A stretch of DNA of 41,439 bases from Clostridiales bacterium. GTDB lineage: Bacteria; Bacillota; Clostridia; Caldicoprobacterales; UBA3941. Within the stretch, counting starts at the first letter, position 1; each line of letters starts with the position of its first letter. Below the pieces are notes generated by a model. The model ran no database searches. It saw nothing but the letters and a program-made list of their open reading frames with translations, and was not told the DNA's origin. Below are positions 29,316 through 34,872 of this stretch, one piece after another. The position numbers were made by a program, and so were the translations under genes. The DNA lies in NCBI GenBank assembly GCA_012518075.1, contig JAAYTG010000148.1:1-41439 (forward strand), given 5' to 3'.

Positions 29316-30596
29316 TTAGATATTATATACTTTACCCATAAAGAGAATAGAATCGGTTTCATCATCGGCTATGATAAAAATAAAGGGGCGGTTTGCAATA
29401 AATTCAATGGGCTCGACTGCACTTGTTTCCCTCATCTCTACTACAGTTGCGGCAGCAGCTTCGCTACCCTCTTCATTGACATCAATTACAGCTTTGTGGA
29501 AAACCTCATTGATGCATAGATTGTCTCCAATTCCAGAAAAATCGGCATCATCTGAAAAAGCGTCTTCCATACCTAGGTTTATCAAACTGCCCTTCAAGCT
29601 CTTAATTCCATATTCAAGTTGGAATCGGGGTATTTGTAGTATAAGATCATCGGTGTGGGATATGCTATCCTTGACAATCTTCCATTTTTCACTATCGAGA
29701 TCTTCTATAAATTCATTGGTGGATTTTCCTTCTTCCGGCAGGATACAGTACATTGCAGTCTTGCCATTTTCATAGGGAAGCCTCACAACTTTGAAGTCAT
29801 CTTTCTGTCCATATTCAACGGATCCATTTCGACTCATCATCATTACTTCTTCGCTACGGCCGTCTTCTCTATAAAAGAGGCTATTAAGAGTATGTTCCTT
29901 ATTAAATTCATCTGCCCAATTTCCTTTGAAGTAGACAGCATTTATTAGATACATAATGGTATCAGGTGCTATTGGAGGTTCAATCATCTGGCTTATTTTC
30001 TCATTGGTAGCGTCGGATATCCATTGGTTTATCTTATTGGCTGCATCTTCCTTGGAAAAGTCCAGTGTAGATACAAGGGCATTAAAAACTTCCTTGTTTA
30101 TAGACAAAAAAGGCTCTTGGATGGGGACGCCATCTCTAATCCAAATAGAGTTGGCTATGTTTAGTTCAATTTTATGATCAAGTTTCATCAAATGTGGCAG
30201 CAAATTTTTATAGCTTTCATTTAGAACTTGAATATCTATATCAGAATACCTTAAAGCTTTTGCCATAGCTTCCTTGGTAGTGCCTTGAGCCCCTTGATAG
30301 GTCATAGCCAGAGCAGTTGATATACTTAGGGGAGATATAAAGATATTTTTCTCTCTATCTTCTTTATTTAATTGCTTAAAAATATGGAAAGCAAAGTCGC
30401 TATTTCTTTTAACAAGCTCTGGTCCGATTTTACTCTTGTCATAAAGAGTACTAATTAGTTGTGAACTAGGTAGCACCTGGTCTTTAGAATTGCCCTGCTT
30501 ATCGGGCTTATCATAGGGCAAGGAACTAGAGGAACAACCTAGGAATAATCCTATGATTATGGATAAAGATAGGAAAAAGCTTAACCATGTCTTCAT
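29316..30596 (-). CDS. Serpin-family protease inhibitor, lipoprotein
   Basis: A 426-residue serpin with a lipoprotein signal (residues 1-22, lipobox LFLGC), so it is tethered outside the cell. Serpin landmarks are NIFISPLSISTALAMTYQGAQGTT, INAVYFKGNWADEF, and the C-terminal RPFIFIIADDETDSILFMGKV. The hinge of the reactive loop is intact and inhibitory in type (small residues GSEAAAAT, Gly377 as P15), placing P1 near Thr391 followed by Ser392. The loop is about two residues longer than alpha-1-antitrypsin, so the exact P1 is uncertain. Start ATG 30596 has AGGAGG at 7-nt spacing; an upstream in-frame ATG (30638) has none. It may shield surface enzymes such as the xylanase from proteases. Confidence 0.9.
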   Translation of the reverse strand: MKTWLSFFLSLSIIIGLFLGCSSSSLPYDKPDKQGNSKDQVLPSSQLISTLYDKSKIGPELVKRNSDFAFHIFKQLNKEDREKNIFISPLSISTALAMTYQGAQGTTKEAMAKALRYSDIDIQVLNESYKNLLPHLMKLDHKIELNIANSIWIRDGVPIQEPFLSINKEVFNALVSTLDFSKEDAANKINQWISDATNEKISQMIEPPIAPDTIMYLINAVYFKGNWADEFNKEHTLNSLFYREDGRSEEVMMMSRNGSVEYGQKDDFKVVRLPYENGKTAMYCILPEEGKSTNEFIEDLDSEKWKIVKDSISHTDDLILQIPRFQLEYGIKSLKGSLINLGMEDAFSDDADFSGIGDNLCINEVFHKAVIDVNEEGSEAAAATVVEMRETSAVEPIEFIANRPFIFIIADDETDSILFMGKVYNI

Positions 30597-30720: not shown

Positions 30721-30748
30721 TTGACCTTAGAGTTTAAAATGGTATAAT
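30721..30748 (+). promoter_or_regulatory. Strong promoter of the orphan ncRNA
   Basis: TTGACC (30721-30726), 16 bp, then TATAAT (30743-30748), also carrying the extended TGG just upstream. One of the best promoters in the window, with no coding gene immediately behind it. Confidence 0.75.
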
Positions 30749-30754
30749 GATTTT

Positions 30755-31010
30755 AGGAAATCAATTGAATAATTTCTGGGATATTCGTGAAGCTTTTGTT
30801 TTGAACCTACATTGTGCATAAGGGAGTTCAATATTAAATGATGGATATCAAGCCTATTGTGAGACCCGTAGGGCAGGGGAAGATAGAAGCATTTATGAGA
30901 ACACCCACCTATCGAGAGATAGGTGTCAAAATAGAAGCAACGGTATCTTGGATTTTGCATTGATTGATACAAGTCCATATGTGCATGGAAAATGCATATA
31001 TGGACTTTTT
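30755..31010 (+). ncRNA. Orphan structured RNA of about 250 nt
   Basis: A complete transcription unit without a plausible frame: strong promoter, then folded sequence, then an intrinsic terminator (30972-31010). Ends pair with each other: AATCAAT (30759-30765) with ATTGATT (30959-30965), then an 11-bp wobble-rich helix (30775-30785 with 30942-30952), then a 13-bp helix (30792-30804 with 30926-30938). At the apex side an 8-bp hairpin CACCTATC-GAGA-GATAGGTG (30906-30925) carries a GNRA tetraloop. TTGAAC/GTTCAA (30801-30806 with 30826-30831) offers an alternative fold. The end-to-end rod recalls 6S RNA, but size and details are not decisive. raiA-type RNA is another possibility. SRP, tmRNA and RNase P motifs are absent. 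Confidence 0.65.
30972..31010 (+). terminator. Terminator of the orphan ncRNA
   Basis: A 15-bp stem with one G-T pair (30972-30986 with 30992-31006), loop GGAAA, then a T-run to 31010. Confidence 0.9.
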
Positions 31011-31101
31011 GTTCAGTTACTTATATGAAATTTTAGTCAATGTTTTAGAATAGCTGATAATGTGGTACTAATAAGTCAATATGAAACAAATTAATAAAAG
31101 T

Positions 31102-31130: not shown

Positions 31131-31262
31131 ATGGGTAGCTAATAGTTAAGACCAATATTTAATGAAGATATCCATAAAATTAACAGGTCCAATAAAACAT
31201 GAAGTGGTGGTTTTGGACTTGATTGTAAAGAACCGCAAAAAGATATAGAAGGAGGAATGGTT

Positions 31263-31844
31263 TTGGCAAAGCCAAAGAAGCCTAGATTTAAGGTAGCTAG
31301 GCATCTAGGGGAGAATGTCTATAATCACCCTAAGGCACTTAAGAGAGGAGTCAAACCTTACAGAAAGCAATCGGAATATGGTAAGCAGTTATTGGAAAAG
31401 CAAAAACTTAAAGCATATTACGGGGTTATGGAACGTCAATTCCGGCGTTATGTGAGTGAGGCTTTAAAGGCAAGGGAGAATCCGGGAATAGTGCTGATTC
31501 AGAAGCTTGAGACAAGGTTAGACAACATTGTATATCGACTGGGATATGGCTCTACACTGCGACAAGCTAGGCAAATTGTAGGACATGGCCATATTCGAGT
31601 AAATGGCCAAAAAGTTGATATACCTTCCTATCAACTAAAGGTAGGAGATGAAATTAGCTTAAGTGAAAGAGCCAAAAACAAAGATCTTTTTCGTGAGAAT
31701 TTTCAATCCATATCCCTAACCCTTAGCTACCTGGTAAAGGATCTAGATACGTTGACAGGCCGTCTGGTAAGTATACCGGATGCTGATGAAATACCAATAA
31801 ACGTAGATATGTCCCTTATTGTGGAATTCTACTCTAGAAGTTAA
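31263..31844 (+). CDS. rpsD: 30S ribosomal protein S4, zinc-free paralogue
   Basis: A 193-residue S4 protein. The N-terminal segment (MAKPKKPRFKVARHLGENV) lacks the four-cysteine zinc ribbon of the standard Firmicute S4 (CxxC...C...C). The core is intact: SEYGKQLLEKQKLKAYYGVMERQFRRYV, then the S4 RNA-binding domain LETRLDNIVYRLGYGSTLRQARQIVGHGHIRVNGQKVDIPS. It lies alone, away from the usual alpha operon (no S13, S11, RpoA here), as expected of the alternative copy. Start TTG 31263 is 6 nt after AGGAGGA (31250-31256); ATG 31257 abuts that site and is unlikely. Such copies often take over under zinc shortage. Confidence 0.88.
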   Translation: MAKPKKPRFKVARHLGENVYNHPKALKRGVKPYRKQSEYGKQLLEKQKLKAYYGVMERQFRRYVSEALKARENPGIVLIQKLETRLDNIVYRLGYGSTLRQARQIVGHGHIRVNGQKVDIPSYQLKVGDEISLSERAKNKDLFRENFQSISLTLSYLVKDLDTLTGRLVSIPDADEIPINVDMSLIVEFYSRS

Positions 31845-32180: not shown

Positions 32181-32372
32181 ATGAAAATAAATGCTAATAT
32201 GACCATAGGAGAACTAATAAGGACCTATCCTCAAACCGTCGAGGCTCTTTTTGAATTCAATATGGGATGTGTTGGATGCCCTTCAGCCCAGGGTGAGACC
32301 CTGGCAGAGGCTGCTATGGTTCATGGTATCAAGTTAGATGATCTTCTAGAAAAACTAAACCAGGCGGTATAG
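32181..32372 (+). CDS. DUF1858 (ScdA-N-like) domain protein
   Basis: A 63-residue protein with the pattern of DUF1858/ScdA N-terminal domains: MTIGELIRTYPQTVEALFEFNMGCVGCPSAQGETLAEAA, with Cys30 and Cys33. In ScdA/YtfE (RIC) proteins, which repair iron-sulfur centres after nitric oxide or peroxide damage, a domain like this precedes the di-iron hemerythrin domain. Here the next gene, 4 nt on, supplies the hemerythrin part. Start ATG 32181 has TGGAGGT at 8-nt spacing. Confidence 0.85.
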   Translation: MKINANMTIGELIRTYPQTVEALFEFNMGCVGCPSAQGETLAEAAMVHGIKLDDLLEKLNQAV

Positions 32373-32376
32373 ATTT

Positions 32377-32934
32377 ATGGATAGTATAAATCTTATGGTG
32401 GAGGAGCATAGAAACATAAAGCGGATGCTTAAGATTATACGAGAGTACTGCTATAAAATATTGAAAGACGAAGATGTTCAATATGAAGACTTTTATAAAA
32501 TGATTGATTTTATAAGAAGCTATGCCGATGACCACCACCATGGTAAGGAAGAAGAGCTGCTATTTAATAGAATGGTAGACGAACTGGGACCAGCAGCCCA
32601 AAAGCTTGTAACCCATGGAATGTTGGTAGAACATGATTTAGGGAGACTTTATACCAAGCAGTTGGAAGATGCGCTAACAAAGGTTTTAGATGGAGATGAA
32701 GAGGCAAAACTAGACCTTATTGGAAATGCTATGGCATATGCAGATCTACTCCATAGACATATTGATAAAGAAGATAGGGTGGTCTACGAGTTTGCTAGAA
32801 AGAATCTAGAAAAAGATACCTTGGATAAGATAAACTACGAATGTACTATCTTTGAAAACAGGGCCAGAGAAGAAAATGTTCAAAATAACTATCTAAATCT
32901 ATTAGATGAATTGGAAACCAACCTTTCTATATGA
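32377..32934 (+). CDS. Hemerythrin-like di-iron protein
   Basis: A 185-residue four-helix protein with metal ligands in the expected order: EEH (9-11) in helix A, DDHHHGKEEELLF in helix B, LVTHGMLVEHDLGR in helix C and HRHIDKEDRVVYEF in helix D. It is likely the catalytic half of a split RIC-type repair protein or a nitric oxide/oxygen sensor-scavenger. It is co-transcribed with the DUF1858 gene (4-nt gap), and the hybrid cluster protein gene lies just downstream. Confidence 0.88.
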   Translation: MDSINLMVEEHRNIKRMLKIIREYCYKILKDEDVQYEDFYKMIDFIRSYADDHHHGKEEELLFNRMVDELGPAAQKLVTHGMLVEHDLGRLYTKQLEDALTKVLDGDEEAKLDLIGNAMAYADLLHRHIDKEDRVVYEFARKNLEKDTLDKINYECTIFENRAREENVQNNYLNLLDELETNLSI

Positions 32935-32960
32935 CAAATAATGCAAATATAGAATTGTAA

Positions 32961-33000
32961 AACATATAGGGGATTAGTAATATCCTCTATATGTTATTAT
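32961..33000 (+). terminator. Terminator after the hemerythrin gene
   Basis: AACATATAG (32961-32969) and CTATATGTT (32987-32995) pair, extended by GGAT/ATCC inside, followed by ATTATTG. The T-run is weak. Confidence 0.55.
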
Positions 33001-33051
33001 TGAAAGCAATAGAATTTTATAGGGAATTACAAAAAAATTATACATTTCTCG

Positions 33052-33100
33052 AAGGTATGTAACATACGTTACATACCTTATAGTCCATTTTCTTTATAAT
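33052..33100 (+). promoter_or_regulatory. Near-perfect 28-bp operator and promoter of hcp
   Basis: Twelve-base arms AAGGTATGTAAC/GTTACATACCTT (33052-33063 and 33068-33079) flank ATAC. The core TGTAA-N6-TTACA matches the dyad in front of the DUF1858 gene. TATAAT follows at 33095-33100, 29.5 bp from the dyad centre, so the dyad centre lies near -41.5. A CRP/FNR-family activator such as HcpR is the natural candidate. Confidence 0.75.
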
Positions 33101-33152
33101 ACACAATGTAAAGCTCGCATGTTATACTATTATTGAAAGAGCAGGAAAAGAA

Positions 33153-33194
33153 ATGAAAAGAATGAAGAAGGTAGAAATCTTCCAGTCTTCTTAA
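33153..33194 (+). CDS. Possible 13-residue peptide in the hcp leader
   Basis: A short frame ([13 protein letters not shown]) with GCAGGAAAAG upstream. The support is only the ribosome site and the position; it may not be translated. Confidence 0.2.
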
Positions 33195-33240
33195 AGAAGC
33201 AAATCTAAAGAAAATCATTAGAAAAACAGGAGGTACACAC

Positions 33241-34872
33241 ATGAACATGTTTTGTTATCAATGTCAGGAAACAGCAAGAGGTACTGGTTGTACGGTTAGG
33301 GGAGTCTGTGGTAAAACATCTGAGGTATCAAACCTACAAGATTTACTAATCTATACTGTAAAAGGAATTTCGGAAATAGTAGTAAAGGGAAAGTTGGATG
33401 TCAAGGAATTAGGCGATATTAACCATCAAGTGTTAAATAGTCTTTTTATCACAATCACCAATGCTAACTTTGATGATGATGCAATTGAAGAAGAAATTAA
33501 TCTAATGCTAAGCCTGAGAGATAGCCTAAGAGAAAAAATAGATGTTGATAACCTACATGATAGTGCTACATTTGAGGTCAACTCTAGGGAAGATATGTTG
33601 GAGAAGGCCAAAACTTCAGGTATACTGTCTACAGAAAATGAGGACATTAGATCCTTAAGGGAAATGATTACCTACGGTATAAAAGGATTAGCCGCCTATA
33701 CCGACCATGCCCTCAATATTGGTAAGGAAAACTATGACCTATATGTTTTTATTTACGAAGCTATGGCAGCTACCGTAAATGACAGCTTGACGGTAGATGA
33801 TTTAGTCGCCCTAACATTAAAGACCGGTGAACAAGGTGTGGCAGCTATGGCCCTGCTTGATGAAGCTAACACCTCGAAATATGGGAATCCGGAGATTACC
33901 GAGGTTGATATTGGTGTAAGAAATAATCCCGCTATCTTGATATCGGGACACGACCTGACAGATTTGGAACAGCTACTTGAGCAGACTCAAGGTACTGGCG
34001 TTGATGTATATACTCATGGCGAGATGTTGCCTGCTCATTATTATCCAGCCTTCAAGAAATATGATAATTTTGTAGGTAACTATGGAAATGCTTGGTGGAA
34101 ACAAGTAGGAGAGTTTGAGTCCTTCAATGGTCCAATTTTATTCACCACCAACTGCATAGTTCCTCCTAGAAGTGAAGAGGTAAGGAAGAGAATCTTTACC
34201 ACAGGGGCAACCGGATATCCAGGATGTGTCCATATAGAAGCCGATGAGGATGGCAAGAAGGATTTCTCTCAGATTATAGAACTGGCTAAGAAGCTAAATG
34301 CACCTATTGAGATAGAACAGGGTACAATTGTAGGTGGATTTGCCCATAATCAAGTCTTTGCATTGGCTGATAAGGTGGTAGAGGCAGTAAAGACAGGAGC
34401 CATCAAAAAGTTCTTTGTAATGGCAGGATGTGATGGAAGGATGAAATCCAGAGACTATTATACAGAATTTGCTAAGAATCTGCCTCAGGATACCGTAATC
34501 CTTACTGCTGGATGTGCCAAGTATAGATACAATAAGTTGAATCTTGGAGATATCGGGGGTATACCAAGGGTATTGGATGCAGGTCAATGTAATGATTCCT
34601 ACTCCCTTGCACTAATAGCTCTCAAACTAAAGGAGATTTTCCAACTAGATGATATCAATGAACTACCTATAGCATATAACATTGCTTGGTATGAGCAAAA
34701 AGCCGTTATTGTGTTGCTTGCTCTACTATATCTGGGTGTAAAGAATATTCATCTAGGGCCAACCCTTCCCGGCTTCTTATCTCCAAACGTAGCTAATGTT
34801 TTAGTGGAACAATTTGGGATCGGGGGAATTGGTGAAGTAGACGAAGATATCGAGATGTTCATGGGTGCCTAA
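33241..34872 (+). CDS. hcp: Hydroxylamine reductase / hybrid cluster protein
   Basis: A 543-residue hybrid cluster protein. The N-terminal cysteines C5, C8, C17 and C23 (CxxC-x8-C-x5-C) bind a cubane cluster. The hybrid-cluster ligands lie in [67 protein letters not shown] and DAGQCNDSY, all present. Hcp proteins reduce nitric oxide to nitrous oxide, and hydroxylamine to ammonia in vitro, protecting anaerobes from nitrosative stress. AGGAGG precedes the ATG. It has its own promoter with a large operator. No hcr-type reductase is adjacent. Confidence 0.95.

Follow-up and report, generated by a model that had tools for sequence, protein, structure and literature searches.

6S RNA is widespread in bacteria, where it imitates an open promoter and keeps RNA polymerase blocked until nutrients return. 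6S RNAs bind the housekeeping holoenzyme by means of this mimicry and are released once the polymerase transcribes a short pRNA from the 5' central bubble, thereby unwinding helix P2 (PMC8876501). A template in the 5' central bubble for a pRNA with a conserved GG is a hallmark of these RNAs, while the 3' central bubble has been reported to form a hairpin in Bacillus subtilis 6S-1 and in lactic acid bacteria (PMC8414754). Two 6S paralogues are present in B. subtilis (PMC8876501) and in the B. cereus group (PMC7726162). In Clostridium acetobutylicum, a strongly expressed 6S RNA has been detected by Northern blot (PMC3879012).

Here we analyzed a locus at positions 30721-31010 of a contig from a Clostridiales bacterium (the whole stretch of 41,439 nucleotides analyzed is referred to as the window). 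Like B. subtilis, with its 6S-1 (BsrA) and 6S-2 (BsrB) RNAs, this genome carries a pair of 6S paralogues, and the RNA studied here has a hairpin in its 3' central bubble. The neighbors of the locus are rpsD and a serpin gene, and its likeness to the B. subtilis RNAs does not by itself imply orthology to BsrA or BsrB.

Identity and transcription unit of the locus

Searching the whole window against Rfam 15 returned a single match above threshold, to RF00013 (6S/SsrS). The match covers positions 30770-30958 on the forward strand and the full length of the model (positions 1-187 of 187), with a score of 80.3 bits (gathering score, 46.4) and an E-value of 2e-14. Three other candidate families, tsr26, Ocean-V and mir-1277, were rejected as weak matches far under their respective thresholds. 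A preliminary description of this locus had proposed an orphan structured RNA, either a divergent 6S-like RNA or an undescribed class, and had named an Rfam search among its checks, with a high-scoring hit to a known family taken to settle identity. By that rule the identity is settled, and our computational analysis places the RNA in the 6S family: the locus is, with near certainty, a 6S RNA gene of the ssrS/bsrA type and one of two 6S paralogues in its genome. A 6S-like non-coding RNA with its own promoter and terminator had thus been correctly recognized, while the terms orphan, divergent and undescribed do not hold given the score of this match and the presence of matches above the curated threshold in 50 of 61 genomes.

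The motif scan identified a sigma-70/sigma-A type promoter at 30721-30748 (forward strand), consisting of TTGACC, a 16-nt spacer and TATAAT with an extended TG ahead of the -10 element. With 11 of 12 matches, it is the top promoter-like site in a 3-kb scan around the locus, and the orthologues of this RNA are preceded by similar sites. An intrinsic terminator at 30971-31013, with a 16-pair stem (30971-31007) followed by a T run, is the sole terminator-like site in the 3-kb scan. The extended near-consensus promoter and the terminator closing a unit of about 250 nt, as initially described, are therefore both present. From the promoter spacing and the terminator, the start is predicted at about 30755-30756 and the approximate body of the RNA at 30756-30970, such that the sigma-A promoter would give rise to an RNA of about 215-250 nt expected to fold into a rod with an open center. 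The only listed open frame across the RNA is an antisense ORF of 83 aa (30727-30978).

Consensus fold and covariation

At -84.5 kcal/mol, the fold of the RNA between 30756 and 31013 is considerably more stable than those of its shuffled counterparts (-55.8 +/- 4.2 kcal/mol; z = -6.8), none of 200 of which folded as well. Several elements that had been recognized in the preliminary description recur in our analysis: the ends pair in the minimum free energy (MFE) structure (30760-30768 with 30960-30968), a 13-bp helix forms between 30792-30804 and 30926-30938 with pairing probabilities of 0.85-1.0, and a GNRA-capped hairpin with a GAGA loop lies at 30906-30925.

To these the consensus fold, obtained from the aligned sequences of nine orthologues (type A, defined below), adds the complete 6S rod. 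Its closing stem joins 30775-30787 to 30941-30952, with 100% of cells paired across the nine sequences, and is followed by helix P2, which is the 13-bp helix noted above (99% of cells paired, with two-sided changes in 2 pairs). Beyond P2 lie an open 5' central bubble (30805-30821), unpaired in the consensus, the GAGA-capped hairpin in the 3' central bubble, and an apical arm whose base is built from covarying pairs between GGGAGTTC (30822-30829) and GAACACCC (30899-30906), all on the forward strand. This canonical apical arm is present in the consensus fold but absent from the single-sequence MFE structure.

Covariation supports this fold, as the preliminary description had suggested examining in collected homologues. 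Among the nine type A orthologues both partners had changed in 12 pairs, and the score for covariation, 0.243, exceeded that of all 500 shuffles (0.152 +/- 0.014) as well as all slid versions. Overall, 96.2% of cells were paired compared to 36-50% for slid partners, a control that is partly biased in that this alignment also yielded the structure; the Rfam match is evidence independent of this nine-sequence alignment. The stem of the 3' bubble hairpin is invariant across orthologues, and covariation therefore neither backs nor opposes it. The computed fold and its covariation thus comprise the closing stem, large central bubble and apical arm of a 6S RNA.

The same data speak against a two-state switch, which had been proposed on the grounds that TTGAAC and GTTCAA could compete with the 13-bp helix. 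Pairing between TTGAAC (30801-30806) and GTTCAA (30826-30831) has a probability of zero in the ensemble of the single sequence, and a fold forced to contain it is about 8 kcal/mol less stable (-52.6 vs -61.0 kcal/mol). The switch is also contradicted by covariation: TTGAAC is fixed across orthologues, whereas GTTC is replaced by GTCC or GCCC in step with its apical partner (GAAC, GGAC or GGGC), that is, it tracks the apical arm rather than TTGAAC. Four apical pairs are held in 9 of 9 sequences, whereas the alternative is not conserved, one of its pairs being held in only 4 of 9. TTGAAC is fixed because it belongs to the pRNA template and, in part, to a strand of P2.

The pRNA template and polymerase release

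The Rfam alignment places the predicted pRNA template at 30797-30812 (forward strand), within P2 and the 5' central bubble, and computation finds it conserved in the orthologues. The template region TTTTGAACCTAC is invariant across type A, as is the template CC (AACCTAC) that corresponds to the conserved GG of the predicted pRNA. The latter would read approximately 5'-[AU]GUAGGUUCAAAAC, with candidate starts at 30810 or 30812. The pRNA of B. subtilis 6S-1, GUUCGGUCAAAACUA (PMC12005410), resembles the complement of this template in that both contain GG and then U(U)CAAAAC, while the 5' parts differ (GUAGGUUCAAAAC here vs GUUCGGUCAAAAC in B. subtilis). When the template was blocked in silico, the central end of P2 opened and the closing stem and 3' bubble hairpin were kept, a response also reported for B. 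subtilis 6S-1 (PMC8876501).

By analogy with the 6S family, from which we infer all functional steps, the rod would mimic an open promoter and, during stationary phase, hold the housekeeping RNA polymerase holoenzyme. Copying of a pRNA, starting near 30812 and running to 30797, would then open P2 and lead to release. The whole-model match, the rod with its central bubble and the position of the pRNA template are common to the family and to this RNA, which has no feature outside the family. The original observation was correct, and what it describes is a standard, ordinary 6S RNA of an already known family.

Paralogues and genomic neighborhood

Across 61 genomes from the family, order and class of the window, its own genome included, 6S matches were found in 53 at E <= 0.001. 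A second 6S RNA of the same genome, on contig C123, scores 73.7 bits. Within the order there are two types of 6S RNA: type A, to which the present locus belongs and which is 63-86% identical to its orthologues, and type B, whose identity to type A is about 50-62%. In a FastTree tree, all nine type A sequences group as a single clade (support 1.000) apart from type B. Weak deeper nodes in the tree make it uncertain how old the duplication is. At least two families of the order, f1 and f4, contain both types, so the duplication probably predates at least these families. Type B loci, among them the second copy (L112, 6775-6954), have their own fixed pRNA template, TTTTAACCCACA. The promoter region of type B is unlike that of type A, and a GGACACAGGATTATATTA-like motif is common to some f4 genomes.

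Conserved neighbors were compared by ORF clustering only. Four genomes of the family carry type A upstream of rpsD (S4) and close to PASTA-domain or ABC transporter genes; no clustered rpsD gene was found by this approach beside type A in f4 (L119, L121, L123, L127). At all 11 compared type B loci, the RNA is found downstream of CoA-dehydratase-activase-like genes (DUF2229, BcrAD_BadFG). In the window, rpsD (195 aa, 31257-31841, forward strand) is a solitary gene downstream of the 6S RNA, and contig C20 carries a second S4-like gene that is 45% identical to it over residues 33-194; S4 gene duplication is itself a familiar theme. Upstream is a full-length serpin gene (29316-30593, reverse strand; Pfam PF00079, 401 bits) with a lipoprotein-like signal start. 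Further downstream, genes for DUF1858, hemerythrin-like and hybrid-cluster (prismane) proteins stand in a row (32181-34869, forward strand) that, judging by predicted function, resembles a nitrosative or oxidative stress cluster.

The position of the RNA, on the same strand and about 250 bp upstream of rpsD, could indicate a 5' leader of that gene (a riboswitch or an S4 autoregulatory leader), as could their adjacency in four genomes of the family. This reading is very improbable given that the unit is closed by the terminator at 30971-31007, that ORF clustering found no clustered rpsD gene beside type A in the other family (f4) and that the RNA matches the 6S family. Independence from neighboring genes, with a promoter and terminator of its own, would suit an undescribed structured class that merely resembles 6S. 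We give that reading almost no weight, since the full-length match lies 34 bits over the curated threshold, 6S homologues occur across the class, the pRNA template is conserved, and the preliminary description itself took such a match as refutation.

Finally, the second intact 6S copy raises the question of whether the present locus is a degenerate pseudogene, with the copy on C123 doing the work. This is hardly credible, as the present copy scores higher than its paralogue (80.3 vs 73.7 bits), keeps its promoter and terminator, and belongs to a lineage conserved with compensatory changes. The locus is best read as a 6S RNA gene that adds one further well-formed member to the family and leaves the picture of 6S RNA unchanged. 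A tentative proposal, which we consider somewhat less probable than its opposite, is that the two paralogues are an old duplicated pair with fixed distinct pRNAs (...GUAGGUUCAAAA vs ...GUGGGUUAAAA), different promoters and divided labor. If true, such a division might involve, say, a difference in growth phase or in NTP sensing. The conserved paralogue pair offers a comparison for the 6S-1/6S-2 case in Bacillus.
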